A DNA stretch of 64,000 nucleotides from an uncultured Erythrobacter sp. Lineage in GTDB: Bacteria; Pseudomonadota; Alphaproteobacteria; Sphingomonadales; Sphingomonadaceae. This document shows positions 4,045-26,303 of the stretch, piece by piece; within the stretch, counting starts at the first letter, position 1, and each line of letters opens with the position of its first letter. The notes under the pieces were generated by a model. The model did no database searches. It had not been told where the DNA came from and saw nothing but the letters and a program-made list of their open reading frames with translations. The translations under genes were made by a program, and so were the position numbers. Location of the stretch: contig CANNCL010000002.1 in assembly GCA_947503155.1 (NCBI GenBank), forward strand, positions 124,001 to 188,000. Reading direction: 5' to 3'.

Positions 4045-5276
4045 GTGAGTTGGACGCGCGCGCGCGTATCATGGACGAATGCGATCCTTTGGCAGGATTG
4101 AGGGAGCGGTTCCGCATTCGCGACGATCTCATCTACCTCGATGGCAATTCGCTGGGATGTATGCCGAACGCAACGCCGGCGCGGATGCAAGAGACGCTGG
4201 AGGCCGAATGGGGAGAAGGGCTGATCACGTCTTGGCTCGATGCTGACTGGGCCGCCGCGCCGCAGCGGATCGGCGATAAGATTGCACGATTGATTGGCGC
4301 GCATCCCGGCGAAGTGATCGCCGCAGATTCGACATCGGTGAACATCTTTAAAGCGCTGACAGCGGCGCTGTCGCTGCGCCCAGATAGATCGGTAATCCTG
4401 ACCGAAACGACCAATTTCCCCACTGATTCGTATATGATGCAAGGGATTGAGCAATTTTCAGGCGGACGGATTAACGCGCGCGCGGTCGCGCCCGATGCCG
4501 TTCTGGATGCGGTGGATGAAAACACCGCCGCGGTGCTACTTACTCATGTCCACTATAAATCCTCATCCGCCCGCGACCTTGCCGAAACCACCCGGCGCAT
4601 TCAGCAATCGGGTGCGATGGTTATCTGGGATTTGAGTCATAGCACGGGTGCGCTTGAAATTGACTTGTCCGGAGCGAATGCGGATTTCGCCGTTGGTTGC
4701 GGCTATAAATTCCTGAATGGGGGGCCGGGCGCGCCTGCCTTTATCTACGTTGCGCGCCGAAATCAGACCGCTCAGCCAGTTTTATCCGGCTGGTTTGGCC
4801 ATTCCAAACCCTTCGCATTTGAAGAGGCTTATGATCCGGCACCGGGCGTCGATCGGTTTTTGTGCGGCACACCTTATGTATTGGGCCTTGCGGCGTTGGA
4901 GGTTGGTGTCGATTTGATGCTTGAAGCCGACATGGCGCAGGTGCGCGCAAAATCGCTTGCACTGGGCGAATTGCTGATTGCTGCGATGGAGCCGCTCTGC
5001 ACAAAATATGGTTTCGCATTAGCCAGCCCATCCGACCCAGCGGCGCGCGGCAGCCATGTCGGTTATGCTCATGAAAATGCCTATGCGATGGTGCAGGCAT
5101 TGCGCGAAGTGGATGTCATCGCCGATTTTCGCACGCCGGAAATGATCCGGTTTGGCCTAACGCCGTTAACTTTGCGGCACTGCGATATTGTCGAAGCGGT
5201 CAATCGGCTTGATGAAGTGTGCGCCGCGCGCAGTTGGGACAAGCCAGCTTACCGGACAGTCGCCTCGGTTACTTGA
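4041..5276 (+). CDS. kynU: Kynureninase
   Basis: PLP enzyme that cleaves kynurenine to anthranilate and alanine. The 411 residues include LIYLDGNSLGCMP at the N-terminus, the PLP-binding HVHYKSSSARDL and WDLSHSTGALEIDL segments, and the Schiff-base lysine K223 in GCGYKFLNGGPGAPAF. Length is as expected for the family. It is the last gene of phhA-kynABU, coupled to kynB by ATGA, and its 3' end overlaps the end of the convergent HATPase gene by 8 bases. No anthranilate-degrading genes follow, so the fate of anthranilate is not shown here. Confidence 0.95.
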   Translation: MSELDARARIMDECDPLAGLRERFRIRDDLIYLDGNSLGCMPNATPARMQETLEAEWGEGLITSWLDADWAAAPQRIGDKIARLIGAHPGEVIAADSTSVNIFKALTAALSLRPDRSVILTETTNFPTDSYMMQGIEQFSGGRINARAVAPDAVLDAVDENTAAVLLTHVHYKSSSARDLAETTRRIQQSGAMVIWDLSHSTGALEIDLSGANADFAVGCGYKFLNGGPGAPAFIYVARRNQTAQPVLSGWFGHSKPFAFEEAYDPAPGVDRFLCGTPYVLGLAALEVGVDLMLEADMAQVRAKSLALGELLIAAMEPLCTKYGFALASPSDPAARGSHVGYAHENAYAMVQALREVDVIADFRTPEMIRFGLTPLTLRHCDIVEAVNRLDEVCAARSWDKPAYRTVASVT

Positions 5277-5682
5277 TAGTCAGGCGCAGGATATTGCGCT
5301 GACCATTATACGCATATGCGATATCTTCGCCCCATGCGCGAACAATCGCGAGGCCTATGCCGCCGCCGGTTTCCGGGTCTGGTCCTGAGAAATCTGTCCC
5401 GCTGGTAGGGTCAAAAGCGGGCCCGTCATCCTCTATTTCCAGCACAATAGCATCGCCAATGTCGGTCAAGACAAGCGAGACAGACAGGTCTTGGTCCCCC
5501 CCGCCATGACGTAAACAATTGGATATTAGCTCCTCTACGATGATTGCCGCCTTGACATAGGCGCGCTCATCAAGGCAGCTTTGCGTTAGATAGTCGCGTG
5601 CGAATTGGAGCGCTTCTCGAATTGTTGCGCGCGGATCACGCCCGCTGGCTACGAATGCCGAAAATCGTCTGCTGTGATCCAT
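5269..5682 (-). CDS. RsbW-like HATPase (anti-sigma / partner-switching kinase)
   Basis: The 137-residue single-domain protein has the GHKL ATP-binding boxes of serine kinases of the RsbW/SpoIIAB type: EELISNCLRHG (N box), EIEDDGPAFDP (G1) and GGGIGLAIVRAWGEDI (G2). Family members phosphorylate an STAS antagonist and sequester a sigma factor or another target. A STAS protein and a PP2C phosphatase, the other two parts of such a switch, lie at 9885-10325 and 6845-8923. No sigma factor gene is adjacent, so the target is unknown. Only 37 bp separate its start from the divergent FecR gene. I see no clear ribosome-binding site before its ATG. Its stop overlaps kynU. Confidence 0.82.
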   Translation of the reverse strand: MDHSRRFSAFVASGRDPRATIREALQFARDYLTQSCLDERAYVKAAIIVEELISNCLRHGGGDQDLSVSLVLTDIGDAIVLEIEDDGPAFDPTSGTDFSGPDPETGGGIGLAIVRAWGEDIAYAYNGQRNILRLTIK

Positions 5683-5719
5683 GAATCTATGCTAACACAG
5701 AACCCAATGGGGGGAATAC

Positions 5720-6160
5720 ATGAGAAAATTTAGTATCCTTATCGCAGCGATGGCTTGCCTGATGGCGCAGGGCGCAATGGCGCAAGATATTGGCCGGATC
5801 AAAAATGTGACTGAGGGCGGGGTCCAAGTTATTCGTGACGGGCGCACTCTTCAGGCCAATTCTGGTTTTCCTCTTGAGCAAGGCGATGTGGTCAACACGC
5901 GGCGCGGGCAGCGCGTTGGCATCACCTTCAACGACAACACCCGCATGGCATTGGGGCCGAACAGCAGCATCACCCTAACGCAATATGAGTATGATCGCAG
6001 ACGCCAAATTGGCCGTTCGGTTACGCGAGTTAATCGCGGTTCGCTCGGCGTTGACTCCGGTAATATTCCGCGTTCGGGTAGGAACGCTATGCGTATTCGT
6101 ACCCCGACTTCTACACTGGGCGTGCGCGGCACAACCTTTGTTGTCGAGGTTTCAGAATGA
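5720..6160 (+). CDS. Secreted FecR-domain protein
   Basis: A 146-residue protein with a Sec signal peptide (residues 1-21, cleavage after AMAQ). It is followed by a FecR fold: IGRIKNVTEGGVQVIRDGRT, LEQGDVVNTRRGQRVGITF and MRIRTPTSTLGVRGTTFVVE. Unlike the FecR that transmits iron-citrate signals it has no transmembrane anchor or anti-sigma segment, so it should be periplasmic. FecR-only proteins of this type are often encoded near CHASE2 cyclases (my recollection, not checked), and this window has one. The start has a G6-type ribosome-binding site, GGGGGGAA, five bases before ATG. Its stop overlaps the next gene by ATGA (6157-6160), so the two form an operon. Confidence 0.85.
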   Translation: MRKFSILIAAMACLMAQGAMAQDIGRIKNVTEGGVQVIRDGRTLQANSGFPLEQGDVVNTRRGQRVGITFNDNTRMALGPNSSITLTQYEYDRRRQIGRSVTRVNRGSLGVDSGNIPRSGRNAMRIRTPTSTLGVRGTTFVVEVSE

Positions 6161-6822
6161 AACGGCGCGCGCCGCTGCTCTTCGCGCTTGCTGGGGCAAT
6201 GACGCTTGCTGGATGTGCGGGCGGGGACCGAGTAACTCTGCTCGAGCCAGCGCAAGCCGCGAAGAAGGCGAACAATGAGATTGGCGCAGTCGCCGTTCTG
6301 GCCAGCGATGCCGAAGATGCCGTTGATCTAGAGGTGCTGGAGCTAACTAACGAGCAGGCGCGTTTGTCGAGGCGTGCAGGCGGCGCTCCGCGGATTCGCC
6401 AGCTGAACGAACTGGATCCAGCGGTTGGCGAACTTTTCGCATTTTTGCCTGCACCAATTGCCCGTCAGAGCTTCGGCTTCGATCTTGACAGAGATGATCT
6501 GACGGAAGAAGTGCTCACCTCGTTGCAAGCGTGGCTTGGTCAAAACATAGTTGGCCGCCCGGGCTTGCAGATCGAGATTGCAGCTTTTGCAGACGCAACA
6601 GGCACAGAGGCAATCAACGATAGGATCACGCTCGGACGTGCGCGGAATGTACGGCAGCAAGTGATCTCGCGGATTGAGCGCGACAGCCTTGAAATCAATG
6701 TGGCTGATATCGACACTGTCGCAAGCAGCTGGCACGCGGCTAGGAGAGAAGCGCAGCTTGAACCTGGTCAAGTTGGTGTCGCTGATGATCGGTGGCGGGT
6801 TGTGTGGGTTACCGTCCGATAG
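6157..6822 (+). CDS. Lipoprotein with OmpA-like C-terminal region
   Basis: A 221-residue protein with a lipoprotein signal peptide: basic start, hydrophobic stretch, and lipobox LAGC near residue 20. The C-terminal half contains an OmpA-like pattern: a segment around residues 105-120 (SFGFDLDRDDL), then LQIEIAAFADATGTEAINDRI and TLGRARNVRQQVISRI. This corresponds to the peptidoglycan-binding OmpA/MotB fold, though the canonical binding residues look diverged. It likely sits in the outer membrane facing the periplasm. It is coupled to the FecR gene by ATGA and converges with the CHASE2-PP2C gene, leaving 22 bp between stops. Confidence 0.7.
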   Translation: MKRRAPLLFALAGAMTLAGCAGGDRVTLLEPAQAAKKANNEIGAVAVLASDAEDAVDLEVLELTNEQARLSRRAGGAPRIRQLNELDPAVGELFAFLPAPIARQSFGFDLDRDDLTEEVLTSLQAWLGQNIVGRPGLQIEIAAFADATGTEAINDRITLGRARNVRQQVISRIERDSLEINVADIDTVASSWHAARREAQLEPGQVGVADDRWRVVWVTVR

Positions 6823-6844
6823 GGGTATTGGGCTGACCGCCGGT

Positions 6845-8923
6845 TTAGCGGCTGCCCACATATCTCAATGCGAAGATTGTGAGATCATCGGTGGGGTCGT
6901 TGTCCCCTTCGAAAAGGCGCACTTCCTTGGCGAGATGCGACGCGCGGCTAGACGCCGTGCCGTCGCTCTCCGCGTTCAACGCACCCAACACGCCTGACAT
7001 GCCGAACAATTCATTCGCCTCGTTCGCGGCCTCAGTTGCCCCGTCAGTGATAATGATCATTGTATCGCCTTCCGCCAAATTAATCGGTTCGACGCGATAG
7101 GGGAAATCGATCACACAAAACGGTGGGCCGCCTTTCATATCGAAAATATCAACGCTGCCGTCTTTTTTCATGATTATCGGATTTTCATGACCCGCGTTGA
7201 TGAGTTCCATCGCCCCGGACCGGCAATCAATGGTGCCGACCAGCATCGTCAACCCCATCTCATCATCTGCCTCGTCCATCAGATCGAGGTTAATCGCAGC
7301 CACTGCGGCCTCTAACCCGTCATCTGCACGGGCGAGATTGCTTTTCGAGAGGGTCTTTGAAAGGGCCATGAAAAGAGCGGCCGGCACGCCTTTTCCGGTA
7401 ACGTCACCGACCATGAAAAGCAGGAGATCTTTGTTGATTTTAATCGCATCGAAGAAATCTCCCCCAACCGATTTTGCAGGCTCCAGCACTGCTCCGACCT
7501 CAGTCCTGTCATCGAGCCGCGATAGCGTCTTGGCACCAGGCACCATGCTCATTTGGATGCGGCGAGCAGCATCTAATTCGCCTTTTTGCTCGGAGGCGCG
7601 GACTCTTTCTTCAACGAGCATCGCGCGGGCGCGTGCAAATTGGGTCAATCCGAGTGCAATTGCTGCGCTCGCTCCAATCAGCAAAGGGCGCACTGGATCG
7701 AACAATAAATTGGCATGCGAATACAGTAGGAAAGAACCCATTGGCATCAGAATGGCGATGCCGAATGTGAGCAACAGCAGCATTTTGCGCCCGCGTATGC
7801 CAGCCAGTAAGACCAGCAAAACGAGCAGAGCGGCACAAAGAATTTCAAGAGCCACCATGGATGGCGGACGTGACAACCATTCACCCTTTAGAATGGCATC
7901 AACGGCCATCGCCTGGACCAAAACGCCGTAAATTGCGCTTTCATGAGGCGTGGCAACAATGTCGTATGTTCCTTCCGCCCCGAGCCCGATGATCACCACC
8001 TTGCCTTCAAGGTTTGCTTGGTCAAAATCGCTGGAAAAAAGTTGCACCGCCGAATATCGAGGTATCTGTTCGTTCGGCAACATCTTGAATTGCATGTTCG
8101 TAAATTGATCAACCGGAACGCTTTGTTCACCCACCAGCATTCCCGCGCCGCCCCATTCTATTTCCTCGCTATGGGTCGCTATTCGGGCAAGCTCGGCTGC
8201 GAAGCCAGGAACGTGCGTTCCACTAACTTGTATTGATAGCGGAACACGTCTGACCACGCCGTCGCCATCGGGAGGGGCGTTGACGAAGGCTTGGCTTGGA
8301 GCGGCTCCATCAAGCTCTGTTATGCTGGCAAGAACCCGATCGGCATTCGTTGTTGCAGGCGGCGGTTCGCCTTTTACAGCTGATGAATAGAAAAGTTCTG
8401 AGGCTTCGATCCCGCCTTCTTCGACTGCAACCCTGGCTATGACCGTTTCCACACGGCCAAAGGTGCTTGCGAGGTAATCGTCCATATTCGGCAAGTTGAG
8501 TATGTTCGACCGTGTTTCCGGATCAAGCTCTTCTTCCAAATAGGCTCCGGCGAATGCCGATGGCCTAGAAGGGTCGGGATCGACAAAATAAATGTCGATA
8601 CCGATCGCGGTGGGGTTGGCGGCGGCCACTTGTTCGATCAGCTGAGCTGTTTGATATCGGGGCCACGGCCAGCTGGTCGTAGCGGCAATGCTTTCGTCGT
8701 CGATCATGACGACGACGACTTCATCGGTGGAAATTTCACGCGGGGCCGCGCGTTGCCAATTGTCGAACACCGTGCGGCGTTCAAAATCGCCCGCAAAAAC
8801 CGTCAGTAATGTGCCGACAATCGCGCCCAACAAAACGGCAAGAATTAGGGGTGAACGGCTAAGGCTTGCGTCAGAGGAGCCCGAACCATTTCCGCCCTTA
8901 GAGATCGACACAGAGCCCATCAT
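6845..8923 (-). CDS. CHASE2-domain membrane sensor with PP2C/SpoIIE phosphatase output
   Basis: The 692-residue protein starts with a transmembrane helix (about 27-46). A large extracytoplasmic CHASE2 domain follows (about 55-335; VVVVMIDDESIAAT, TAIGIDIYFVDPD, KVVIIGLGAEGTYD). Then come two or three more membrane helices (about 355-425) and a cytoplasmic RsbU/SpoIIE-type PP2C phosphatase (about 450-690). The phosphatase has the motifs GGDFFDAIKIN, MVGDVTGKGVPAALFMAL and INAGHENP, with the metal-binding aspartates present. The expected role is dephosphorylating the STAS protein encoded upstream in the same operon, in response to a periplasmic cue. Its start overlaps the MBL gene by 26 bases. 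A second CHASE2 receptor with a cyclase output lies at 23465-25567. Confidence 0.88.
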   Translation of the reverse strand: MMGSVSISKGGNGSGSSDASLSRSPLILAVLLGAIVGTLLTVFAGDFERRTVFDNWQRAAPREISTDEVVVVMIDDESIAATTSWPWPRYQTAQLIEQVAAANPTAIGIDIYFVDPDPSRPSAFAGAYLEEELDPETRSNILNLPNMDDYLASTFGRVETVIARVAVEEGGIEASELFYSSAVKGEPPPATTNADRVLASITELDGAAPSQAFVNAPPDGDGVVRRVPLSIQVSGTHVPGFAAELARIATHSEEIEWGGAGMLVGEQSVPVDQFTNMQFKMLPNEQIPRYSAVQLFSSDFDQANLEGKVVIIGLGAEGTYDIVATPHESAIYGVLVQAMAVDAILKGEWLSRPPSMVALEILCAALLVLLVLLAGIRGRKMLLLLTFGIAILMPMGSFLLYSHANLLFDPVRPLLIGASAAIALGLTQFARARAMLVEERVRASEQKGELDAARRIQMSMVPGAKTLSRLDDRTEVGAVLEPAKSVGGDFFDAIKINKDLLLFMVGDVTGKGVPAALFMALSKTLSKSNLARADDGLEAAVAAINLDLMDEADDEMGLTMLVGTIDCRSGAMELINAGHENPIIMKKDGSVDIFDMKGGPPFCVIDFPYRVEPINLAEGDTMIIITDGATEAANEANELFGMSGVLGALNAESDGTASSRASHLAKEVRLFEGDNDPTDDLTIFALRYVGSR

Positions 8924-9863
8924 ACGAACACAGCACGGTCAATTCTGAATCGCTGCGGGTCAGCTCTTCATAGCGGATTGTCTCGCCGTGCATTCGCTGA
9001 ATATCGGCGTCGCTATAGGTCGGCTCATGGTGGAACAGCGCCAGGCGTTTTGCGCCGCCTTCATGACACAGATCGACTGCTACAATGTTCGAGGAATGCC
9101 CCCAATCCTCTTTCATCGATACACTATCGGCGAGTGAATACATCGTGTCGGCAATGACCAGATCGGCCCCAGAGATGAATTCCACCATGGCGGATTCAGC
9201 ATCCATATTGTCGATCTTATATTCCGCGTCGGTCGAATAGACCGCGACCTTCCCATCAGCATCGCGGAACCGATAGCCGTAACTGGCATGGCTGTGTTCT
9301 TGCTGGATAAGAGAAACACTGAGTTCGCCAATTTCATATTCTTGCCCCGTTTCCAGGGTGCGGAATTCGATATCAGCCTTCAACCAATGGAATGGCACTG
9401 GGAAAGAGATTTCTTCCTGCTGACGGCGCAATGCTTCTTCGGCATCGGCATGACCGGCATGAATAATGACCTTCGCGCCTTCGACAAAGGCGGGCACGAA
9501 AAACGGGAACCCCATGATGTGGTCCCAATGCAAATGCGACAAGAAAAAGTGCCATTCTTTCGGGCGGTCGCCATCGGATAGTCGGCGCAACGTGTCGAGG
9601 CCATATTCACGCAGGCCCGATCCCATGTCGCATACAACAAAGGCGCCTTTTCCGGCGTCGACTTCTACGCAGCTGGTGGCACCGCCATAGCCTTGACCGA
9701 CCGCAAATTCGAGCTCTTCGCGCGCATAAGCGGCGGCGGCATCCTTGTCCGCAAAACTCTTGCCATTTGCATGGAGGAGGGCATCTGCAATTTTGTCTGT
9801 GATGGTGGAGGCATGCGGTGCCACTGGCAGCGACCCGCGCGTGCCCCAAAAACGGATCTGCAT
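8898..9863 (-). CDS. MBL-fold metallohydrolase (PhnP / RNase Z-like branch)
   Basis: The 321-residue protein begins with FWGTRGSLPV and contains YGGATSCVEVDAG, the metal-binding SHLHWDHIMGFPFF, EHSHASYGYRF, VYSTDAEYK and a late histidine in LALFHHEPTYSD. Together these define the metallo-beta-lactamase fold branch that holds PhnP-like phosphodiesterases and RNase Z relatives. It lacks the exosite of true RNase Z and is not next to phn genes. A G6-type ribosome-binding site (GGGGGGAAT) precedes the ATG. It sits between the STAS gene (21 bp upstream) and the CHASE2-PP2C gene (26 bp overlap), so it belongs to that operon. Hydrolysis of a cyclic nucleotide or phosphodiester signal is possible but is inference only. 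Confidence 0.85.
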   Translation of the reverse strand: MQIRFWGTRGSLPVAPHASTITDKIADALLHANGKSFADKDAAAAYAREELEFAVGQGYGGATSCVEVDAGKGAFVVCDMGSGLREYGLDTLRRLSDGDRPKEWHFFLSHLHWDHIMGFPFFVPAFVEGAKVIIHAGHADAEEALRRQQEEISFPVPFHWLKADIEFRTLETGQEYEIGELSVSLIQQEHSHASYGYRFRDADGKVAVYSTDAEYKIDNMDAESAMVEFISGADLVIADTMYSLADSVSMKEDWGHSSNIVAVDLCHEGGAKRLALFHHEPTYSDADIQRMHGETIRYEELTRSDSELTVLCSYDGLCVDL

Positions 9864-9884
9864 ATTCCCCCCTTCGAATATGAC

Positions 9885-10325
9885 CTAGTGGCCTAGCGCA
9901 TCCTCAATCGAATCCGCGACACGGAAAACCATATCATAACGGCTGATCGCCAGAATTTCGCGCATCGTTTCATTTGGCCGCGCAAGAATGATCGTAGTGC
10001 CGGCACCCTGACCTGCCCGCTGCGCCAAAGTTAGCGCGCGAAGACCGCGTGACGACATGTAGTCGACCCCAGCAAGGTCAATCACGGCAGTAGCCGGCTC
10101 TTTTTCCATCGCTGAGAGGAGGTGTTCTTTGAAGGCATCGGCGGTCGATTCGTCGATCCGTCCACTAGGCGCAAGCACCGCTGTGCCCGCGCGCTCTTCG
10201 CTATTCCAGTCCAAGGTGCTGCCCGTCATACGCTCTGCATAGCGCGGCTTAACCCAATTGCCAAATGCTCTAGGTTTGCCGTCATAGGCGCCAAGAACGG
10301 GCGAAATATCTACCAAGTGCTGCAC
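9885..10325 (-). CDS. STAS-domain protein (anti-sigma factor antagonist, RsbV-like)
   Basis: The STAS domain occupies about residues 40-146: GTAVLAPSGRIDESTADAF, then AVIDLAGVDYMSSRGLRAL, where the serine pair corresponds to the phosphorylation site of RsbV/SpoIIAA, then RPNETMREILAISRYD. The GTG at 10325 is chosen because AGGAG lies five bases before it, giving 146 residues. The ATG at 10229 would give 114 residues, the usual family length, but has only a weak ribosome-binding site. The extra 32 residues resemble no domain I know. It is first in the operon STAS-MBL-CHASE2-PP2C and is divergent from the TPS operon. Together with the HATPase at 5269 it completes a partner-switching set. Confidence 0.85.
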   Translation of the reverse strand: MQHLVDISPVLGAYDGKPRAFGNWVKPRYAERMTGSTLDWNSEERAGTAVLAPSGRIDESTADAFKEHLLSAMEKEPATAVIDLAGVDYMSSRGLRALTLAQRAGQGAGTTIILARPNETMREILAISRYDMVFRVADSIEDALGH

Positions 10326-10650: not shown

Positions 10651-10673
10651 GTTTGGGAAATCGGGGGGCGGGT

Positions 10674-12545: not shown

Positions 12546-12546
12546 G

Positions 12547-18500: not shown

Positions 18501-20280
18501 CGTCGATTTGTTCATCTTCACAGATGCGGTCAGCGGGCAAGATGGATCGGCGGCTGGCGGTACGTCCAGCCTGATCGTGGGAGATGCCGCCATTGTGGGC
18601 ATCCCACAGGTTGATATTGTCGATCTCGAACTGAGCGCCAATGCATCGGGCGCGTTCGACGATAATGGCCCTGTAAACACGGCTGGTTCGTTCTCTATCT
18701 TGGCTCAGCAAGGCGAATTGAGCGCTCAGAATATTACCGGCACGGCGCTAGGCGACTTGTTGCCTGGTGAGCTTGGGGTACCGCGTTTCAGGGCGCTTGG
18801 CGGTAACATCTTCGTGTCCAACACGATGACAGTCGATGTGTTCGACGGTTTCTTGATCCAGACATCTTTGGGCGGCGTTGTTGGCGACCCCAATCCGCTT
18901 GATCCTTCGGTGAACATTTCGGTGACCTCGCAAGGCACAATCAGTATCCTTGGCGATAACGATAATCTTATCAGCTTTGGCGGTCTGACCGTGGATTTGA
19001 GGTCGCGCGATATCGTGATTGCCGATGGAGCGCGTATCGGGGCGGCGCAGATGAACTTCATCTCGATCAACACCGATGATCCTGCGATCCTAGGCGGGGC
19101 GGGGACGCCGGACGGCGTTGTGGCTGGCGAAGGCTATACGTTGATTAATGAAGAGCTTGGGCGGCTTGAAGTGATAAGCGCCAGCTTTGCTCAACCTACG
19201 ATTGCGGGTGCTGGGGTCAATGATCCTGATCTGATCTTACGCGATATCAATGCTGAGGGTTCGCTCGTCGATGGTGTGACGAATATCTTTATCGATGTCA
19301 TTGGGACCGGCGGTATTGCGCGGGTCGAAGGTGTCGTCTCTGTAACTGGTGCAGGGGTTGATGATATGTTCAACCTGCTCGCGGATGCGCGTATCGAAAT
19401 CGTCACTCCTGGCGGTATTGCTGTGCTGGATTCCAATGATCGGCCAACCGGCAACATATTCCTGGGGTCGGATAATATCTGGATTGCCGATTCCAACCTC
19501 ATTGCCTTGCTGCAAGCCGATCCAAACTTTGCCGGGCGCAATGATCAATTGGCAGTCGCTGCCGCAGGTAGCCAGGATCCTTTGGGCTTCTTGCGCGGGG
19601 GCGCGATTGAATTGGAGGTCGGGCAATCTTTGCTGGTGCGCAATTCTGGCACTGCGACCGAACAGGGCGGCATCCTTGTTGGAAATGGCGGTCTGTCTAT
19701 TTTTGCACCGGACCTTGCGAGCACACTTGATGTGTTTGCTTATGGTGCGCGGATCGAAAGCACGGGCAACCTAATCACCGGCGAAGCCTTCTTCAACGAG
19801 ATCGCATTCAACGGTGGTTCGGCTACTGGTGCGACGAACTATACCGGCGAATCTGAGTTCAATGACTGTTTGATCACCACCGGTGACTGCGGCACCTCGA
19901 CTGGCGGCGGCACTGGCGGCGGCACTGGCGGCGGCACTGGCGGCGGCACTGGCGGCGGTACAGGCGGCGGCGGAACAGGAGGCGGTCCAGTTAACGGTGG
20001 CGGCGGCGATTCTAGCCCCGACCCTGACAATCCGGTCGAAGATGACGAAATCGCAGTCGTGAATAACCCCGCAGTCATCGATGCGGCGATCACCTCGATT
20101 CAGCCGGTCACATTGACTGAGCAAGAAAGCAATGACGACTTCGGCATCGACTTCCCGGGCTTAGTTGAAGAACCTGAAAGTGAAGAGGAAAACGATGTCG
20201 ACGATCCCGTCGCGAGTGGCGGCGATAGTTCGCTTTATGGGCAAATTGTGACCGGCAACGTCGAAGTGGAGGGCAATTGA
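12547..20280 (+). CDS. Giant glycine-rich filamentous-haemagglutinin-like exoprotein (TpsA)
   Basis: A 2577-residue protein. A signal peptide (1 to about 34, ending RAAAQA) is followed by an FHA-type TPS domain (about 35-330; VLNIILPAANGNVTVFDGTV, VAFYSPSGILVGSNAVFDVG). A very long beta-helix-like region follows (about 330-2000) in which glycine-rich turns such as GGDGGDG and GIGGGDAF alternate with short strands ending in asparagine or valine. A less repetitive part comes next (about 2000-2450), then a (TGGG)n linker (about 2452-2480) and an acidic tail (DDEIAVVNN, EEPESEEENDVDD). A 251-residue internal duplication is described separately. The start follows the exporter stop by one base, with GGAG nine bases upstream. 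Export by the adjacent TpsB to the cell surface is expected from the family; no retention or adhesion domain is identified. Confidence 0.88.
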   Translation: MAHLNHNRAKLLLGCGSAALAIGLAAAPDRAAAQAFQATEIVQTGTATRILTGTGTETIEVDSPTAVIEWTPDEDGAGNALDFLPTFNQATFQNGGAVTDFAVLNIILPAANGNVTVFDGTVISQLEVGSGVFTPGGTVAFYSPSGILVGSNAVFDVGNLILTTLETDIAAFDAFATGGGTLSLGGDPTTASIIISPGAQITASAENSYFAVVAAEIQMFGNANINGSHAYVAGEAVNLTVSNGLFDIEIPIGTTVGTPIQIDGNVGGPSSTGVTGDNHLIYAVAAAQTDPISMIFRGNLGFDAAASAGIVNGEIILSANYEVFGRTVDGGSITDGNSALFDADSALTDAPGSIFLEDFVSTSTLLAIANEEVQVAAVNGPSSIDGNLIMVGRNFSELTASNGQVFDISGDVFVSADDFGTVDISVLPADLDAQAGQAFIDAFGGGTLTIGGDVLVSARAVAGANLTTLTSGSATGGNATLASNGGVLNIAGDVEVETNAGEAQIGLDFLVGNDFTAGTAQLFATQGGVVTIDGNVSLNANAQGTTGSTTQTSTASNAFSGTIGIQTLDGSTLTLNRGLFASANAIAGSSNDSVQGGLADGGDVFINIAAGGNITVAESLAMSADATGGNNAGGQGGDALGGASRILLPNGGSLTIGDNFSASGSAFGGTGIGGGDAFAGIAGAQVVTGLIDIGLNVDAVAEAFGGDSAAGLGGDGGNGTGGNAFVQANGTLTDTATINVGGNVRASSIGFGGAGGQGDGSVISAGAGGAGTGGRIATPNQADTNFGSGTFALAGGDNGNLTVTGEVDLSSDGVGGDGGAGGIGQSGGDGGQGLGGTSQAGLALLGGDGSVALGNANLADVTLSAEGFGGEGGNGGGPGTLFGNGADAFGGDAILTVRAGSISANRIFVFAGASGGFGQIGGSVGGGQASITGSLSGDLTASEIGVFAEAFAARGEDQGGGANGGQASIALTDMQISVDGNVNVGADAFGGDGDSGTGGFATGGLAEISILDDVSTLDISGNASLSANGVGGASALASLGALGSGGDAQIIVDGAGTLAIDLITLLSANGTGGDNDGSGQGGEGRGGTATVFADNDGFVTLGGNFTATSTGQGGTGIGGGDAFGGVAGAQAIVGTIQFGANAFVNAVGTGGDSTSPIGFGGDGGDGIGGAAGIRAEGTATDAGTITIVGNATLLANGAGGTGGTGDGSVIAAGRGGDGRGGNLSTPNQADATSFNGAILFVSGDGSVLNIGGTTLLNSVGTGGAGGSGGLGQSGGEGGDGIGGGAVTSITSAGGSAANGTAVFDTLNVLADGFGGAGGFGGSTGDPQGNGGNGGDGTLGVTTAGVIVTNASLTANAITVAANGVGGDGGNGGIGVAAGASGLFINQGGSVTTGALSIFALGVGGDGLSGVGGAGIGGSGELTADSGTALITGDSIINSGGTGGESADGDGGDGTGGTSQILAISLLGDITIDGHTSLLSNGIGGDAGTNFTGGTGQGGTATLAALTAGTFNAGSAQIVASGQGGSGSSANGGNGFGGVAQILSVDPNSDITIQNSTPFGLPGNGVLTQSNSLLVAAGIGGNTTGGLGIGGVGTGGTATVQANGGSTLALPADPGNDVNAGGFNRIIARGVGGGSSVDGGMGGNGIGGTGIISADGGGVISSGQMIFSIFGQGGSSLDTNANIDGGDGTGGSRRISLVNASTITLALPGGTSGGLGGAASGNGRGGDGFGGSNEVSVDDSTLNLVGQSIFIDQSFGGSGEVGGNAIGGTVEFTVTGSAINIIADANGAASVGIGGTVFGGEGASEGGMAIGSDVDVGISDSTIAGGSLLITAGAIGGNASDGDGVGGAALAGLAQFSSIDSQLNLSGSNVVSAAAVGGDADNGGDATGGQVDVRLTDTVLTIVAANSSPGSLDLSSDATGGSSAFQIGNSSAGDTAFTSEGGSITASELRATAQANSGTTATGVTAGQAFGGFARVEFNGPADVDIVDLFIFTDAVSGQDGSAAGGTSSLIVGDAAIVGIPQVDIVDLELSANASGAFDDNGPVNTAGSFSILAQQGELSAQNITGTALGDLLPGELGVPRFRALGGNIFVSNTMTVDVFDGFLIQTSLGGVVGDPNPLDPSVNISVTSQGTISILGDNDNLISFGGLTVDLRSRDIVIADGARIGAAQMNFISINTDDPAILGGAGTPDGVVAGEGYTLINEELGRLEVISASFAQPTIAGAGVNDPDLILRDINAEGSLVDGVTNIFIDVIGTGGIARVEGVVSVTGAGVDDMFNLLADARIEIVTPGGIAVLDSNDRPTGNIFLGSDNIWIADSNLIALLQADPNFAGRNDQLAVAAAGSQDPLGFLRGGAIELEVGQSLLVRNSGTATEQGGILVGNGGLSIFAPDLASTLDVFAYGARIESTGNLITGEAFFNEIAFNGGSATGATNYTGESEFNDCLITTGDCGTSTGGGTGGGTGGGTGGGTGGGTGGGGTGGGPVNGGGGDSSPDPDNPVEDDEIAVVNNPAVIDAAITSIQPVTLTEQESNDDFGIDFPGLVEEPESEEENDVDDPVASGGDSSLYGQIVTGNVEVEGN
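14449..16536 (+). repeat. Internal duplication of about 251 codons within the adhesin gene
   Basis: Copy 1 (14449-15201) and copy 2 (15784-16536) align codon for codon with a 1335-bp offset, apart from a two-codon insertion in the middle of copy 2. Shared landmarks include GGTGIGGGDAF, GDGSVI.AG, TPNQAD, GIGQSGG/GLGQSGG and GNG. The copies have diverged considerably at residue level, so the duplication is old. Confidence 0.8.
19900..19986 (+). repeat. Tandem 12-bp repeat encoding a (TGGG)n linker
   Basis: Six units of ACT-GGC-GGC-GGC (the last with synonymous or ACA variants) run from 19900 to 19971, followed by a degenerate tail. The unit is a multiple of three, so gain or loss of copies changes linker length without shifting frame. 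It separates the main body of the exoprotein from its acidic C-terminus. Confidence 0.9.
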
Positions 20281-20281
20281 G

Positions 20282-23200
20282 ATGACACCCACAATTTTCG
20301 GCAAAACACTCCTAACAGCTTGCACTGCGGCAGCGGTCGGGATCACTGCCCTCTGGGCTGTTCCCAACACGGCGCAGGTGGCTCAGCAGCGATCAATCAG
20401 TTTGCGCGACACATTCCCGGTCGGGACCAACGGTTTGTGCGAAGCGCAAATTCAAGCGCCTGAAACCGGGGCCGGATTGTTCGACCGCAAATATTCGATC
20501 CTGTGCCGAGACGCAGCCGCTTCGATCGGCACGATGTGGGTTGTGCGCGGGCGTCAGGCTGATGAAGCAGCGGCGCGGTTTGTTGGTCCCGATGCAAATT
20601 GCAGCGAACGCGAAGGCGCTGAAATGCCGGCCGGTCTTACAGGCGGGCGGCGTTTGATCTGTACGCAGGATGGCAGCATCATTCGCACCGAATTGCTCGT
20701 CGGCGAAGTTGGCAACCGCACCTATGCGGCCACCGGCCTGTCTGCCTATGGCAAGGCGCTTGAGCTGGGCGTTGCCTCCTTGGCGACTGATCAAATCGTA
20801 CCGGGCACGGTCGACATTCCGCTCACGCAAACCACCGACACGCTCGCCTTTGTGCGCCAGCAAGCTGAAGCGATCACGGCAGATCAGGCGCTGAACGAAG
20901 CGTATCGCCGCGCCAATAGCGGCGAATTTGCAGAAGCCGCCGAATTCTTTGCCGCATCCGCTGAATCGCTGACTGGCAATAGCGAGGTTGAGGCGCGCCT
21001 TAACGAAGGGCTGCTGCAATCTAACATCGGCAATTTTGCAGAAGCGCTGAGGCGTTTTGAACAAACGCGCGCGAGTGCCGCCACCAGCCCAGTGCTGGCC
21101 CGGCTGCAACGCAATTATGAAACTATCGATGCGCTAAACCGGGGCGAACCTGCGCAAGCGGTGCAAATTATCAGCGCGCCGCTCAGCAACGAATTTGGCG
21201 ATACCGACGCTTTGCGCAGCCTCCAGATCGGCCCGCAATTGGCGCGCCGATTGGCCGCTGAAAGCGAGACTGCGGCGAGCAGTGCGATTTCAATGAGCCT
21301 AACGCCGCTCGAACGCGCGCAATTGCTCGATGGGCAGGCGGATTACCTGCATGCGACGGGCTTACGGCTCCTCGGGAATAATGCAGAAGCCGCGACCTAT
21401 CTGGCGCGGGCCAATGCCAATCTGGCCGAGGTGCGCGGTGGCCGGATCGTTTCGATTATCTGGCTGCGTGCGCAAGTTCTTGGCGAGCTTGCCGAATTGT
21501 CCGAAAGTTCCGGCCGCTCTGCCGACGCCGAGCGACTGCATAGTGAAGCCATCGCCTTGTTGGTCGCCGCATATCCTGAATCGCCCGCTCTCTATAGTGC
21601 GCAGGCCCAGCTTGCCGGTCTCTATTCGCGTAGCGGCCGAACGAGTGACGCCATCAATCTCTATCGCGGGATTGTTGCGCAAGCCGAAGGGCGGCCCGCG
21701 CCGTCTTTGCGCAGCTATATGTCGACCTATTTTGGATTGCTGTTGGGGGATGGGGTAAGCAGCGCAGCGGCCGATGATATTTTCTCGGCCAGTCAATTGC
21801 TGATGCGGCCCGGCCTTGCACAGACTCAGGCGGTGTTGGCGCGCGAATTGTCCGGCGGCAGCGACGAAGCTTCGCTATTATTCCGCCGCAGCGTCAATTT
21901 AGGGCGTTCGATTGAACGGATGCGTGTCGCGATCATTCAGATCGAAGGGGAGGCGTTGGTTGATCCGCAAGCCGAGATCATCCTGACTGAGCGCCAAGGC
22001 CGGCTCGACGCGCTATTGGGCCAACAGGCTGAGGTCTTGCAAACACTCGCCGAATATCCGCGTTTCCGCGCGGTCACCGGCAGTGCGATTGACCTTGCCG
22101 GAATGCAATCAATCCTGCGCGACGGCGAAGCTTATGTGAAGATGATCGTTCTCGATCGCGAAGTGTTCATGGTTTACATCACGCCAGAAGAAGCACTCGC
22201 CTACCGAGTGAATGCAACGCCGAATGAATTAGAGGACATTGTATCCGGGATCCGCGAAAGCATTGCGATTGCAGAAGGCGGGCAAGTGCTGACCTTCCCA
22301 TTCGATCTCGCCGCGTCACGCGATCTGTATGTCCGCCTGTTTGAACCGGTGGCGGACCGTCTGGCCAGCCGAAACCACATTGTTTTTGAGCCCGATGGTG
22401 CGATGCTCAAATTGCCGATCAACCTGCTGGTCACTGACGATGCGAGCTTAGAACGATATCAGGCGCAGCTTCAGACACCCGAAGGCGATGACTACGATTT
22501 CCGAGGCGTCGCATGGCTTGGTAGAAACTCGCAAATCAGCACATCGGTCGCGCCAACCGCCTTTCGCGATGTGCGGGCCGCTCCGCCCAGTTCCGCGGAC
22601 AAAGCCTATCTCGGACTTGGCGAAAATACGCCGATCGGTGATGGGCCAGTGGGAACGTCGTCAACCCGTTCAGCGCTTGCTGGCGGGGAAAATTGCCTTT
22701 GGTCGGAAAATATCTGGTCGAACCCGATCAAATCGGATGAGCTGTATGACGCAGCCTCTCGTTTTGGCGGAGAGCAGACTTTCGCAGCGACAGTCCTGAC
22801 GCAAAACGGCTTTACTGACACTGCGATCAAAGCGCGCGATGACCTGAGTGAATACCGCATTCTGCATTTCGCAACCCACGGCCTTGTGACCGCCCCGCAA
22901 CCAGATTGCCCGCCGCGCCCAGCGCTGCTGACGTCCTTTGGTGATGAAACGTCCGACGGTCTGCTCAGTTTTGCGGAAATATTCGCGCTGCGGATTGATG
23001 CCGATCTGGTGATCTTATCGGCATGTGACACTGCGGGCAGCGCAACCGTTGGTGCGACGCTTGAGGCTGGCATTACATCAGGCGGTGATTTCGCGCTGGA
23101 TGGTTTGGTGCGCGCCTTTGTGGGGGCAGGGGGGCGCACGGTCCTCGCCAGCCATTGGCCGGTGCCGGATGATTTCGACGCAACGAAACGATTGATTGGC

Positions 23201-23347
23201 GGCTTGTTCGACGAAGCGGACAGCGAAACCGCCGGTGCGCTCCGACGATCCCAGCTGGATCTGATGGACGATATCGACACATCGCACCCGTTTTACTGGT
23301 CCGCATTCGCGGTTGTAGGCGATGGGTCGGTCAAGGTTACGCGCTGA
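20282..23347 (+). CDS. Secreted TPR-CHAT protein (caspase-like protease family)
   Basis: A 1021-residue protein. An N-terminal signal-like hydrophobic segment (about 8-32, ending NTAQVAQ) is followed by a region of unknown fold (about 35-190). TPR-like helices run to about 520 (ALNEAYRRANSGEFAEAAEFF, EARLNEGLLQSNIGNFAEAL), and a C-terminal CHAT domain spans about 600-1015. The caspase-like dyad is intact: H866 in LHFATHG and C915 in VILSACDTAG, followed by GLVRAFVGAGGRTVLASHWPV. CHAT proteases are known from effector and defence settings, and in cyanobacteria they lie near haemagglutinin/TPS genes. The export signal implies periplasmic or surface action. GGAGG lies eight bases before the ATG, and one base separates it from the adhesin stop. 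Confidence 0.88.
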   Translation: MTPTIFGKTLLTACTAAAVGITALWAVPNTAQVAQQRSISLRDTFPVGTNGLCEAQIQAPETGAGLFDRKYSILCRDAAASIGTMWVVRGRQADEAAARFVGPDANCSEREGAEMPAGLTGGRRLICTQDGSIIRTELLVGEVGNRTYAATGLSAYGKALELGVASLATDQIVPGTVDIPLTQTTDTLAFVRQQAEAITADQALNEAYRRANSGEFAEAAEFFAASAESLTGNSEVEARLNEGLLQSNIGNFAEALRRFEQTRASAATSPVLARLQRNYETIDALNRGEPAQAVQIISAPLSNEFGDTDALRSLQIGPQLARRLAAESETAASSAISMSLTPLERAQLLDGQADYLHATGLRLLGNNAEAATYLARANANLAEVRGGRIVSIIWLRAQVLGELAELSESSGRSADAERLHSEAIALLVAAYPESPALYSAQAQLAGLYSRSGRTSDAINLYRGIVAQAEGRPAPSLRSYMSTYFGLLLGDGVSSAAADDIFSASQLLMRPGLAQTQAVLARELSGGSDEASLLFRRSVNLGRSIERMRVAIIQIEGEALVDPQAEIILTERQGRLDALLGQQAEVLQTLAEYPRFRAVTGSAIDLAGMQSILRDGEAYVKMIVLDREVFMVYITPEEALAYRVNATPNELEDIVSGIRESIAIAEGGQVLTFPFDLAASRDLYVRLFEPVADRLASRNHIVFEPDGAMLKLPINLLVTDDASLERYQAQLQTPEGDDYDFRGVAWLGRNSQISTSVAPTAFRDVRAAPPSSADKAYLGLGENTPIGDGPVGTSSTRSALAGGENCLWSENIWSNPIKSDELYDAASRFGGEQTFAATVLTQNGFTDTAIKARDDLSEYRILHFATHGLVTAPQPDCPPRPALLTSFGDETSDGLLSFAEIFALRIDADLVILSACDTAGSATVGATLEAGITSGGDFALDGLVRAFVGAGGRTVLASHWPVPDDFDATKRLIGGLFDEADSETAGALRRSQLDLMDDIDTSHPFYWSAFAVVGDGSVKVTR

Positions 23348-23435
23348 TTTAATCGTCATACCGTGAAGGCATCACACACTCCTGAGGGGGATTGCGTAGC
23401 CAAGGCGGCTTGCAAGAAACGCACAAAGCGTCTTT

Positions 23436-23459
23436 GATCCCCGCTCTTCCGGGGGGATC
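23436..23459 (+). promoter_or_regulatory. Hairpin covering the Shine-Dalgarno of the CHASE2-cyclase gene
   Basis: GATCCCC (23436-23442) pairs perfectly with GGGGATC (23453-23459). The right arm contains the G6 ribosome-binding site that lies eight bases before the ATG at 23465. The 117-bp spacer between the CHAT and cyclase genes is the longest gap in this operon. The structure could limit cyclase translation. Confidence 0.45.
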
Positions 23460-23464
23460 GGTGA

Positions 23465-25567
23465 ATGTCTGACGAATCGAATAAAAAGAAAAAGGGCGGC
23501 TTGATTGCGCGGGGCTGGCGCAGTGTGCGTGAGGCGGGCAATATTCAGTTGGTCGCGACTTGCTTGCTTTTGCTTCTCGCAATCTTTTTGGCCCGGTTCA
23601 GTTGGATCCTGCCCGGCGGGGAGGAACCAACGCCGCTAACCAATGCCGCAGAGCGGGCGCTGTATGATACGCGCGCCTTTCTAGCGGCTGACTTGGTTGA
23701 GCAAGACGACCGAATTATTCTGGTGGTTTATGACGATCAGGCGCTGATCAATCTGGAACAGCGTTCCCCGTTGCCCCGTGATGCACTGGCAGAGGCGCTG
23801 GGCAATCTGGATCAGATGGGTGCCAAGGCGATCGGGATCGATATTCTGTTCGATCAACCCCAAGCCGACGATCAATTGCTTATCGACACATTGCGAGGAA
23901 TGCAGACGCCGACAGCGGTCGGCTATGCCAATGTCGCCACCAACGCGACCGACATTGTTTATGAACAGCAGATATTTCTAGAAGAGTTCATGGCGGAATT
24001 GGACGGTTCCAATTCGCGCCCGGCGAGCATTCGGCTCGACAACAGTTTCGGTGCGACGCGGATTTGGCCGCGGATCGAACCTGACCTGCCGCCTTTGTTA
24101 GGCCGCGCCATGCTGGAGGATGCAGGCGGACCGGTTGCGCAATTTGAAGGGTATGAAGGCGCGATTGAATATCGCCGCGCTTTGCGCGCCGGCTTAGAAG
24201 AGCAATCCGAGGGCGACGATTCCGGGCAAGCCAATATCGAAGAGCCGCTATTCCAGTCGCTTTCGATCGAGTTGTTCACAAATCTTGACCCCGCCGTCGC
24301 CGAATATGTCGCTCAGGAGATTGAGGGCAAATATGTCCTCATCGGCGGCGACATTGTCGATTATGACCGGGTCGAAACATCCTTCACATCATGGACCGGT
24401 TTTGAACCCGCCGGGCTATCAGTCCATGGCGAGATCATTGCACAAATGCTCGACGAAAAGGTTTTGCCGCCAATCCCCAGCTGGGTCTTATGGGCGATGG
24501 CTGTTTTGGTCGTGGCGACGGCTGCACTCACTGCGCTGCTTGAATGGCCCGCACCAAAATTGGTGCCGCTCTTTGTGATGCTCTTTGCGCTGTTTGTGGG
24601 CATTCCCTTTATGCTGCATTTTCAGGATATCGACACATACGGACTGCCCGCTGTGGGCTGGCTGCTCGGGTGGATCGTGGCCTTTACCGCCGTCACAGCG
24701 GCGGCGCGTTCGGCGGGCGCGGCTCAGCGCAGCTTTGCGCAAGGCGCGCTGGGTAAATACATCCCGCGCGATATCGCACAGCAAATCATCGATGATCCCG
24801 ATCTTCTCTCGCTCGGCGGCGAAAAGCGCGAAATCTATGTGATGTTCAGCGATCTTGAGGGCTTTACTAAGATGAGCCACGCGATTGAACCTGAAATGGT
24901 CGCAAAGCTGCTCAACCGCTATCTTGAGATGCTCAGCCAAGTTGTGCTCGATCACGGCGGGGTCATCGACAAATTCGTCGGCGATGCGGTTGTGGCGTTT
25001 TGGGGGGCACCGATTTCGCGCCCTGACGATGCAGAGCGCGCAGCCAATGCCGGTTACGCCATGTGGCAGGCGGGCGAGGATTTCCGCAAAGAGGTCGCGG
25101 AAATGGATGATGCATTGCCCAAAATCGGCAAAACCCGGGTTGGCCTGCATTACGGCGAGGCGGTCATTGGCAATTTTGGCGGCGACACGCGTATCCAATA
25201 TACGGCGCTTGGCGACAGCATGAACACCGCAGCGCGTTTGGAAGCAGCAAACAAAGCGCTGGAATCCAGCGTCTCTGCCAGCCGCGAGTTTATTGAGCGA
25301 TCAGAGCTGGATTGGTGGGTCCCTATGGGCCGCATTGTCCTGCGCGGACGGGCGCAGCCGGTCGACATATTGCAGCCAATGCCCGATTTTCCAGCGGAAC
25401 ACCGCGCGAAATTGATCGAAGCCGCTCAGCTTAGCGAAAGCAAACATGACGTAGCGGTACAATTAATCGATGAAGTGGCTGCTATGCATCCGGAAGACCC
25501 GGCGCTGCGTAACTATACCAGTCGCATTCGAAACCTGAATGAGGGGGGAGCTTATGTTCTCGGATAA
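23465..25567 (+). CDS. CHASE2-domain class III adenylate cyclase
   Basis: A 700-residue membrane cyclase. It has a basic N-terminus, TM1 (about 30-47), an extracytoplasmic CHASE2 domain (about 55-340; IILVVYDDQALINL, KAIGIDILFDQ, KYVLIGGDIVDYDRV), three helices (about 345-425) and a cytoplasmic class III cyclase domain (about 455-620). Metal-binding aspartates are D463 (MFSDLEGFTK) and D507 (DKFVGDAVVAFWG); K503 corresponds to the substrate lysine. The TALGDSMNTAARLEA segment carries the transition-state asparagine and arginine, and a threonine takes the purine-contact position, as in many bacterial adenylate cyclases. It should make cyclic AMP in response to a periplasmic cue. Its end overlaps the next gene by 14 bases. 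Confidence 0.92.
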   Translation: MSDESNKKKKGGLIARGWRSVREAGNIQLVATCLLLLLAIFLARFSWILPGGEEPTPLTNAAERALYDTRAFLAADLVEQDDRIILVVYDDQALINLEQRSPLPRDALAEALGNLDQMGAKAIGIDILFDQPQADDQLLIDTLRGMQTPTAVGYANVATNATDIVYEQQIFLEEFMAELDGSNSRPASIRLDNSFGATRIWPRIEPDLPPLLGRAMLEDAGGPVAQFEGYEGAIEYRRALRAGLEEQSEGDDSGQANIEEPLFQSLSIELFTNLDPAVAEYVAQEIEGKYVLIGGDIVDYDRVETSFTSWTGFEPAGLSVHGEIIAQMLDEKVLPPIPSWVLWAMAVLVVATAALTALLEWPAPKLVPLFVMLFALFVGIPFMLHFQDIDTYGLPAVGWLLGWIVAFTAVTAAARSAGAAQRSFAQGALGKYIPRDIAQQIIDDPDLLSLGGEKREIYVMFSDLEGFTKMSHAIEPEMVAKLLNRYLEMLSQVVLDHGGVIDKFVGDAVVAFWGAPISRPDDAERAANAGYAMWQAGEDFRKEVAEMDDALPKIGKTRVGLHYGEAVIGNFGGDTRIQYTALGDSMNTAARLEAANKALESSVSASREFIERSELDWWVPMGRIVLRGRAQPVDILQPMPDFPAEHRAKLIEAAQLSESKHDVAVQLIDEVAAMHPEDPALRNYTSRIRNLNEGGAYVLG

Positions 25568-26303
25568 AATGAAGACCCGTATCGCGGGCATGGCGCTTAT
25601 CGGCGCTGTTATGACAATTCCTGCGGCGGCTTCGGCTGGCGTGGTGGTGAAATCGACCGGACCGTCGGCAGGGACCTATCCCGTCGGACGCCAGGTCGAA
25701 GATTCTGCGAGCATTACATTGCGCGCAGGGGACAAGATCACAGTCCTAACCGATGGCGGAACCCGCGTGATGCAGGGACCGGGCACATTCCGCGTTGGCG
25801 AAGGGGCAACCCGCACCCGCGCGCGGTTCTCAAACCTCACACGCCGCAATGCAAACCGCCGGGTACGCACTGGTGCTGTTCGCGGCGGTCCCGGTGACGG
25901 CGTTGCACGCAGCCCAAATCTCTGGTTCGTAAATGTCGCAGCAGGCGGCAATATGTGCCTTTATGATCTCAACGCAGTTCGTCTCTGGCGCCCAGATTCG
26001 GAAGGTGCGCAAACCTATCAAATCCAAGATCAGGCAAATTCGAGCTCGATCGAGGTGCCTTTCGTTGAAACCGAAACGGTGCGCGCGCTTGATCCCACAG
26101 GATTGCCGCTGACCAGCGGTCGCAGCTACACCATCACGGCACCAGCCGCCGAAGAGGGCGAACCCGCTTCGGTCAATGTGACATTTGTCGTCCTGTCTGA
26201 GCAATATTCCGCACCCGACCAACTCGCGCAGGCGCTCGTTGAAAATGGCTGCACCACACAGCTTGGATTGCTTGCAGATACGCTCGAGGCATCTGCGCAA
26301 TAA
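25554..26303 (+). CDS. Secreted protein of unknown family with FecR-like N-terminal strands
   Basis: A 249-residue protein. The signal peptide is about residues 1-28 (IPAAASAG). The N-terminal part (VEDSASITLRAGDKITVLTD, TRVMQGPGTFRVGEG) resembles FecR-type beta-strands. A basic stretch (RFSNLTRRNANRRVRTG) follows, then a second beta-rich region (NLWFVNVAAGGNMCLYDLNAVRLWRPDSEGA, TGLPLTSGRSYTITAP). Two cysteines (NMCLYD, NGCTTQ) could form a disulfide. The ATG at 25554 is chosen because GGGGGGAG lies just before it; an upstream GTG at 25539 would be non-canonical. It overlaps the cyclase stop. Its architecture recalls the DUF928 proteins found with CHAT and haemagglutinin genes in cyanobacteria, but I cannot claim homology by eye. 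Last gene of the operon. Confidence 0.75.
   Translation: MFSDKMKTRIAGMALIGAVMTIPAAASAGVVVKSTGPSAGTYPVGRQVEDSASITLRAGDKITVLTDGGTRVMQGPGTFRVGEGATRTRARFSNLTRRNANRRVRTGAVRGGPGDGVARSPNLWFVNVAAGGNMCLYDLNAVRLWRPDSEGAQTYQIQDQANSSSIEVPFVETETVRALDPTGLPLTSGRSYTITAPAAEEGEPASVNVTFVVLSEQYSAPDQLAQALVENGCTTQLGLLADTLEASAQ

Follow-up and report, generated by a model that had tools for sequence, protein, structure and literature searches.

What does a CHAT protease domain do in an operon that exports an adhesin, and which of the genes around it share its task? The question is raised by a locus at positions 5269 to 26303 of the window, the whole stretch of 64,000 nucleotides analysed here, from contig CANNCL010000002.1 of an uncultured Erythrobacter sp. 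A first-pass annotation had described eleven consecutive genes there as one system, in which a periplasmic cue controls the export of a giant adhesin, TpsA, by its two-partner secretion (TPS) exporter, TpsB, together with a caspase-like CHAT protein. All eleven open reading frames (ORFs) were found where they had been described. They form three separable modules: a partner switch (module A, 5269-10325), the TpsB-TpsA-CHAT core (module B) and a CHASE2-cyclase with a secreted protein (module C). The end of TpsA carries a motif that is new here, P-[VI]-[TAS]-x-x-G-[ND]-x-x-L, and the argument below turns on its association with CHAT.

Linkage of CHAT to two-partner secretion

The core and its parts are the following.

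10653..12545, plus strand: TpsB exporter with POTRA_2 and ShlB (Pfam); start probably near 10728, inside the listed ORF
12547..20280, plus strand: TpsA, repeat-rich exoprotein of 2577 residues with a divergent TPS domain
20200..20238, plus strand: TpsA tail motif DDPVASGGDSSLY, residues 26 to 14 from the C-terminus; proposed recognition tag for CHAT
20282..23347, plus strand: CHAT protein of 1021 residues, with a signal-peptide-like N-terminus, an N-terminal domain, a TPR arm and the CHAT domain
22877..22879, plus strand: predicted catalytic His866 of CHAT, invariant in 55/55 aligned CHATs
23024..23026, plus strand: predicted catalytic Cys915 of CHAT, likewise invariant in 55/55

TpsB, in which POTRA_2 and ShlB both exceed their cut-offs, has the POTRA and barrel domains of a two-partner secretion exporter. 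TpsA gave no Pfam or NCBIfam match with hmmscan, and in a profile search of the genome its TPS domain scored 27.6 bits against a cut-off of 33.5, which two of the four TpsA of this genome pass.

The contigs of relatives were scanned with the window CHAT, and the best 80 of 110 relatives yielded 79 loci, all titled Sphingomonadales except one titled Alphaproteobacteria only. TpsB and/or TpsA were next to CHAT in 70 of the 79, so that the proposed tie between the export genes and CHAT holds far beyond the window strain. Among the nine loci without a TPS match, eight end at a contig edge within 0.8 kb upstream, and in the ninth (L067) the upstream ORF is long and rich in repeats. When 60 genomes of the order were searched, a CHAT lay no more than 18 kb from 12 of 34 distinct TpsB ORFs; the 7 genomes concerned all belong to the window's family.

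The 3.14-Mb source genome itself encodes 7 CHAT genes, 4 TpsB, 4 TPS-domain matches (two below cut-off, including the window's) and 3 CHASE2 proteins, and its four TPS systems all share a gene run with a CHAT. The gene order is TpsB-TpsA-CHAT in the window and at C2:18489-32613, CHAT-TpsB-TpsA at C2:264649-281353, and CHAT-TpsA-TpsB at C1:5001-25719, where the CHAT is short (825 residues). The remaining three CHATs are many-TPR proteins without a TpsB near.

The TpsA tail motif

The TpsA proteins of these loci are otherwise widely different, and the motif lies roughly 15-35 residues from their C-terminus. A loose pattern was detected in 61 of the 66 complete TpsA within the C-terminal 60 residues, never elsewhere in the same 66 proteins (162,042 residues), and on average in 0.17 of 66 tails after shuffling; a stricter pattern was found in 44 of the 66. 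In an alignment of 46 tails picked among the pattern-bearing ones (A2, comprising 39 of the 66 complete relatives' tails, the window, its two own paralogues and four order genomes), Pro, the following Val/Ile and Asn/Asp are each present in 46/46, Gly in 45/46 and Leu in 41/46.

We searched 119 family genomes with the tail profile built from A2 and, in parallel, for the CHAT family, which gave 124 rows spread over 60 genomes. The tail profile had 44 matches at E<=1e-4, in 36 genomes, all of which have CHAT, and none of the 59 CHAT-less genomes gave a match. Forty-two of the 44 lie on the CHAT strand at a distance of at most 30 kb, 15 with TpsA ahead of CHAT and 27 in the order CHAT, TpsB, TpsA; the other two sit on contigs of 21.6 and 13.2 kb. 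Some of the 119 genomes may coincide with the assemblies of named A2 loci; when the genomes known to have contributed tails are set aside, CHAT adjoins 36 of the remaining 38 matches. In view of this possible overlap the safest subset is the order CHAT, TpsB, TpsA, where the count is 24 of 26 with the two short-contig matches included: these 24, outside G000, G011 and G028, should not be members of A2, since the relatives named in A2 all have TpsA ahead of CHAT. Among the 60 genomes of the order, the strong tail matches were 7, all of them rows of the profile itself, and the next match had an E of 0.003. In the genomes searched, the tail motif thus marks the TPS loci that have a CHAT of the window type.

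A motif so close to the very C-terminus stands where an anchor is expected. It could be an anchoring or export signal for another reader, such as TpsB or an outer-membrane or periplasmic protein, with CHAT acting elsewhere, for example in the quality control of stalled TpsA. TpsB fits as a tail reader too, as CHAT and TpsB co-diverge tightly (r 0.975, see below). However, CHAT-less TPS loci have a TpsB and no such tail: from 22 distinct TpsB ORFs without CHAT, 20 were fetched, of which 15 are accompanied by a candidate exoprotein whose C-terminus is complete, and the loose pattern occurred in 0 of these 15, which were chosen by composition and some of which may not be TpsA. The short-CHAT systems also argue against such a signal. 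The loci L128, L131, L166 and the C1 locus of the source genome form a second class, with short CHAT-TpsA-TpsB operons, in which the motif is absent and a common, different, Cys-containing tail is seen by eye. We regard a reader other than CHAT as unlikely.

The CHAT clades follow the tail subtypes, which are SGGD[SA]SLY for the window, GNPxL for the second locus of the source genome and GAGN[ED]DLW for the third; this genome carries three cassettes with three tail subtypes, each paired with its own CHAT subtype. At the 59 loci having CHAT, TpsB and a tail, the CHAT distances correlated with the TpsB distances at r 0.975 and with the tail distances at r 0.73, both exceeding all 2000 permutations. 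Descent as a unit accounts for part of the match between CHAT and tail subtypes. Pushed to its limit, this would make tail and CHAT mere passengers of one inherited cassette, never in direct contact, the tail being kept for a reason unrelated to CHAT. Such an account draws on the high CHAT-TpsB co-divergence and on the fact that the fetched CHAT-less TpsB are all at most 32% identical to the window's, so that no CHAT-less TPS of the same clade serves as a test. It seems quite improbable to us, because the link is kept in both gene orders (15 and 27 matches, as above) and because long divergent CHATs, with 27-32% identity to the window's, are accompanied by degenerate cores at the TpsA end (L132, L136, L171 and L173, and by eye L175), the pattern being fitted after four of them had been seen. 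This looser core pattern was found at 4/4 divergent CHAT loci, in 62/66 relatives, at 0/3 short-CHAT loci and in 1/15 non-CHAT exoproteins, counts that are only suggestive, since the pattern was drawn up with the divergent tails already known and occurs in the protein body at a rate of 0.13 per 60 residues.

Apart from these comparisons, the CHAT-less TPS exoproteins of L108, L117, L118 and L123 have another C-terminal pattern, around L(S/A)(D/E)FL.

CHAT as a candidate tail protease

The CHAT domain (PF12770) of the window protein scored 160.5 bits against a gathering score of 24 and has the His-Cys dyad of the family; the TPR match was below the Pfam cut-offs. His866, Cys915 and four Cys of the N-terminal domain are invariant throughout alignment A1, which comprises the CHATs of 52 of the 79 relatives' loci, the window and its two own paralogues. 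An AlphaFold2 model (pLDDT 77.2, pTM 0.70) shows an N-terminal beta domain, a TPR arm and the CHAT domain. In a structure search that barely tested the N-terminal domain, the best matches were the Craspase TPR-CHAT and separase, with gingipain lower, and the model has the TPR-CHAT fold of Craspase (Csx29). Searching PDB sequences with the CHAT alignment returned TPR proteins only. The protein is predicted to be a catalytically competent His-Cys protease resembling separase and Craspase. It is also predicted, from its signal peptide and invariant Cys, to be exported to the periplasm: the mature N-terminus could be anchored at 61 of the 79 relatives' loci and was signal-peptide-like, by a simple hydrophobicity rule, in 61/61.

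Since the tail motif marks the export loci that have CHAT, CHAT likely trims or releases TpsA. We think it likely, if by no means assured, that the functional core is TpsB-TpsA-CHAT and that the predicted periplasmic, caspase-fold CHAT recognises and cuts the TpsA tail, by which it would control maturation or release. TpsB would export TpsA N-terminus first, in which case the tail would be the last part left in the periplasm, where it would be gripped by the TPR arm of CHAT and cleaved by the CHAT domain at or near the conserved Asn/Asp or Leu. Excerpts of PMC9729208 describe CHAT substrates as commonly encoded nearby and Craspase as cutting Csx30 after Leu.

A bolder proposal, which we put forward tentatively, is that two-partner secretion would here have CHAT as a third partner, a caspase-fold enzyme dedicated to the tail, either a peptidase or sortase-like, which would read a C-terminal code in TpsA, several insulated protease-tag pairs per cell allowing each giant adhesin to be released or attached separately. 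If true, one of the major routes of adhesin export would have a caspase-fold protease as a dedicated partner, and a defined candidate substrate and a readable tag would be at hand for a group of CHAT proteins in bacteria. Whether secreted CHATs cut at the tail motif, and whether the three pairs of one genome are mutually insulated, then becomes a testable question.

Several observations weigh against a tail read by CHAT. The loose pattern is missing in 5 of the 66 relatives (L060, L066, L078, L092 and L102), which were not included in A2. In the family, 24 of the 119 genomes have CHAT yet no tail match, 82 of the 124 CHAT rows have no tail nearby, and the eight weaker tail matches (E 0.002 to 0.0065) include two next to CHAT and six that are not. 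The co-occurrence of tail and CHAT across the 119 genomes gave a value of 1.3e-14 in a Fisher test, a statistic that ignores kinship. In 397 genomes of the phylum, the 10 matches at E<=0.001 fell in 8 genomes of the window's family only. The tag is not used by every CHAT-TPS system, as the short-CHAT loci have another tail; the fourth TpsA of the source genome (5456 residues), whose partner is the short CHAT, lacks the motif. Because the cassette is mostly passed on as one block (r 0.975), shared descent alone could account for the co-occurrence of motif and CHAT. The TpsA of a Planktothrix TPS-CHAT locus (L178) has, by eye, no such tail. Finally, a conserved motif need not be a cut site, since Craspase orthologues cut Csx30 at a nonconserved site, according to the title of PMC11106740.

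Among known systems, a short conserved C-terminal tag is read by a dedicated cysteine protease in the sortase, exosortase and type IX (PorU) pathways. Here, in contrast, no membrane anchor is apparent after the tag, the export route is another one, and the reading of the tag is a proposal. In Bordetella, the proteases that process FhaB, namely DegP, CtpA and SphB1, are encoded elsewhere. They are also of other folds, whereas the window has a caspase-fold protease in the operon itself, paired with a short tail motif. The likeness lies in the TpsB/TpsA pair and in the C-terminal part of the exoprotein being handled by periplasmic proteases, by which the C-terminal FhaB prodomain is degraded according to the abstract of PMC8263021. 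In the open-licence literature, searched by titles and abstracts, we found neither a system joining a CHAT domain with two-partner secretion, CHASE2, filamentous hemagglutinin or cyanobacterial hemagglutinin, nor a two-partner secretion system with a caspase-like protease; papers touching on CHAT domains and hemolysin, on a fungus and on a cyanobacterial genome, or on two-partner secretion in Erythrobacter mention nothing of the kind in title or abstract.

The window CHAT shares with the Craspase TPR-CHAT (Csx29) and with gasdermin-associated CHATs the TPR arm and CHAT domain, the His-Cys dyad and a substrate gene near the protease gene (here a proposed substrate). It differs from them in its predicted export and its N-terminal Cys-containing domain. 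Another reading is a conflict or cell-death system, in which TpsA would be a contact-dependent effector, CHAT an executioner caspase and the cyclase an alarm: CHAT proteases function in Craspase and have been implicated in the action of bacterial gasdermins (PMC9729208, in excerpt), the cyclase domain of module C resembles Pycsar cyclase models, and one TpsB-TpsA-CHAT cassette, on a large plasmid of Sphingomonas parapaucimobilis (L175), lies inside a type VI secretion gene cluster. We nevertheless judge this very improbable. CHAT is predicted to be secreted and had no PADLOC match, and together with its four neighbours it gave no CRISPR-type PADLOC match; a defence system was rejected as a candidate on the CHAT result. 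Neither Cas7-11/gRAMP, Csx30 or any Cas domain nor a bacterial gasdermin was found in the ten window proteins scanned, and TpsA, having no Pfam domain, has no known toxin domain. In comparison with CdiA/CdiB, the gene after TpsA encodes CHAT and not a small immunity protein.

Linkage of the same kinds of genes exists in cyanobacteria. CHAT-DUF928-CHASE2 clusters are known there, one of them with ShlB and haemagglutinin genes. Plasmid p1 of Planktothrix agardhii (L178) has TPS, CHAT and CHASE2 side by side, but its CHASE2 protein is an AAA_35-CHASE2 and not a cyclase. It was the one cyanobacterial plasmid locus out of four read with all three together, the other three having no TPS gene in the stretch. 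The linkage is therefore older or arose more than once. On a Nostoc plasmid, CHAT and CHASE2 domains are fused in one protein (L177:12201-14516), which hints at a functional tie. A long CHAT match is present in each of the 12 listed plasmid records of Sphingobium, and the one read (L174) has the order CHAT-cyclase-secreted protein-TpsB-TpsA, with a TpsA tail reading DEPVTGAGNEDLW.

Neighbouring modules and non-coding elements

The other features of the locus are the following.

5269..5682, minus strand: HATPase_c_2, RsbW-like (Pfam), module A
5720..6160, plus strand: FecR-domain protein (Pfam), module A
6157..6822, plus strand: OmpA-like lipoprotein, a weak match (26 bits against a cut-off of 175), module A
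6845..8923, minus strand: CHASE2-PP2C (SpoIIE) phosphatase (Pfam CHASE2 and SpoIIE), module A
8898..9863, minus strand: MBL-fold hydrolase (Pfam), module A
9885..10325, minus strand: STAS protein, RsbV-like (Pfam); start probably near 10229, inside the listed ORF; module A
10509..10536, plus strand: promoter-like element CTTGTTTT-N14-GTATCA, conserved in alignment, 5' of TpsB
23465..25567, plus strand: CHASE2 class III nucleotide cyclase (Pfam), module C
25539..26303, plus strand: secreted protein with no Pfam family; likely start 25554; module C
26312..26376, plus strand: intrinsic terminator-like hairpin at the operon end (-35.7 kcal/mol, z -5.94)

Pfam bore out the first-pass domain calls for HATPase_c_2, FecR, CHASE2 with SpoIIE, MBL, STAS, POTRA_2 with ShlB, TPR with CHAT, and CHASE2 with the class III cyclase; the OmpA-like lipoprotein, at the score given above, was the weak part. 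As the strands are mixed, with only 10653-26303 forming a plus-strand TPS operon, the eleven genes are not a single transcription unit.

The CHASE2-cyclase is next to CHAT in 31 of the 79 loci, with the secreted protein in 30 of these 31; the pair travels with many CHAT-TPS operons, as had been supposed, including the divergent sets L132, L135, L172 and L174. In G011 (L121), cyclase and secreted protein occur without an adjoining CHAT. The cyclase would be an add-on, as the window has a CHASE2-cyclase and the second locus of the source genome a GAF-GAF-PAS-cyclase; with its secreted companion it may act as a sensor coupling a periplasmic cue to a cyclic nucleotide. The secreted protein was modelled with a pLDDT of 78.8, and a structure search of the PDB gave no match at E<=0.001, the best rows being FN3/Ig-like (E 0.0045 and weaker).

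PP2C, STAS and HATPase_c_2 genes occur together in module A, as in the partner switches RsbU/RsbV/RsbW and SiaABC, the match to SiaA being weak. To examine this module, 34 relatives were searched with the CHASE2-PP2C protein, and 25 of them have CHAT plus cyclase; L153 and L155, which are wrong contigs, were disregarded. The partner switch adjoins the cassette in only 7 of the 25; a full-length CHASE2-PP2C match is lacking in 17, and in 1 it lies on another contig. Two genomes, G087 (E. longus) and G089 (Qipengyuania sp.), keep the partner switch, cyclase, secreted protein and downstream genes in synteny, and no TpsB, TpsA or CHAT match lies between STAS and cyclase (L140, L141). The 16-kb stretches read in G085, G086, G090 and G092 (L142-L145) contain partner-switch genes but no TPS, CHAT or cyclase gene, HATPase and FecR being unmatched in that of L144. 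The first-pass annotation had proposed a single circuit, in which a periplasmic cue acts through partner switch and cyclase on adhesin and CHAT, and had named free separation of these genes in relatives as evidence against it. They do separate, and although adjacency in 7 of the 25 relatives and CHASE2 proteins on both sides speak for the circuit, the 17 genomes without a full-length match and the six (L140-L145) with a partner switch but no TPS or CHAT in the stretch make it most unlikely. The eleven genes were accordingly rejected as one conserved circuit, and the partner-switch genes as part of the export cassette; the latter would be a separate neighbour sharing the locus in some Erythrobacter.

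As side observations, L140 and L141 appear to be empty sites, where STAS and cyclase are adjacent and syntenic and TpsB-TpsA-CHAT is missing, and in Erythrobacter NAP1 (G061) a weak CHAT match (29%, 104 bits) lies just past the partner-switch HATPase (L146:8931).

The strong terminator predicted after 26303 was recovered as a long hairpin with a T-run at 26312-26376; a simple consensus scan missed it. The structured leader ahead of TpsB stood in part: its folding beats shuffled sequences (z -3.23), but sequence conservation is low (52% mean identity over 8 orthologous regions). Their conserved part consists of promoter-like blocks, the pair at 10509-10536. A conserved RNA leader was rejected on these grounds and because Rfam gave no match there, the Rfam scan of the window detecting tRNA only.

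Three further observations concern the other TPS-CHAT loci of the source genome and the promoter-like element. Near the C1 locus, C1:142-858 and 3884-4600 are a near-identical ORF pair, which we take to be transposase-like. At the second locus, cytochrome c domains are encoded just 3' (C2:34662-36074; L014:12663-14075), and the GAF-GAF-PAS class III cyclase (C2:15277-17580; L027) is divergent from the TpsB-TpsA-CHAT operon and has an 84% identical counterpart in Erythrobacter NAP1 (L167:5006-7309). Exact matches to CTTGTTTT-N14-GTATCA were found in 10 of 173 loci, some being the same place counted twice, and all in window-type Erythrobacter.

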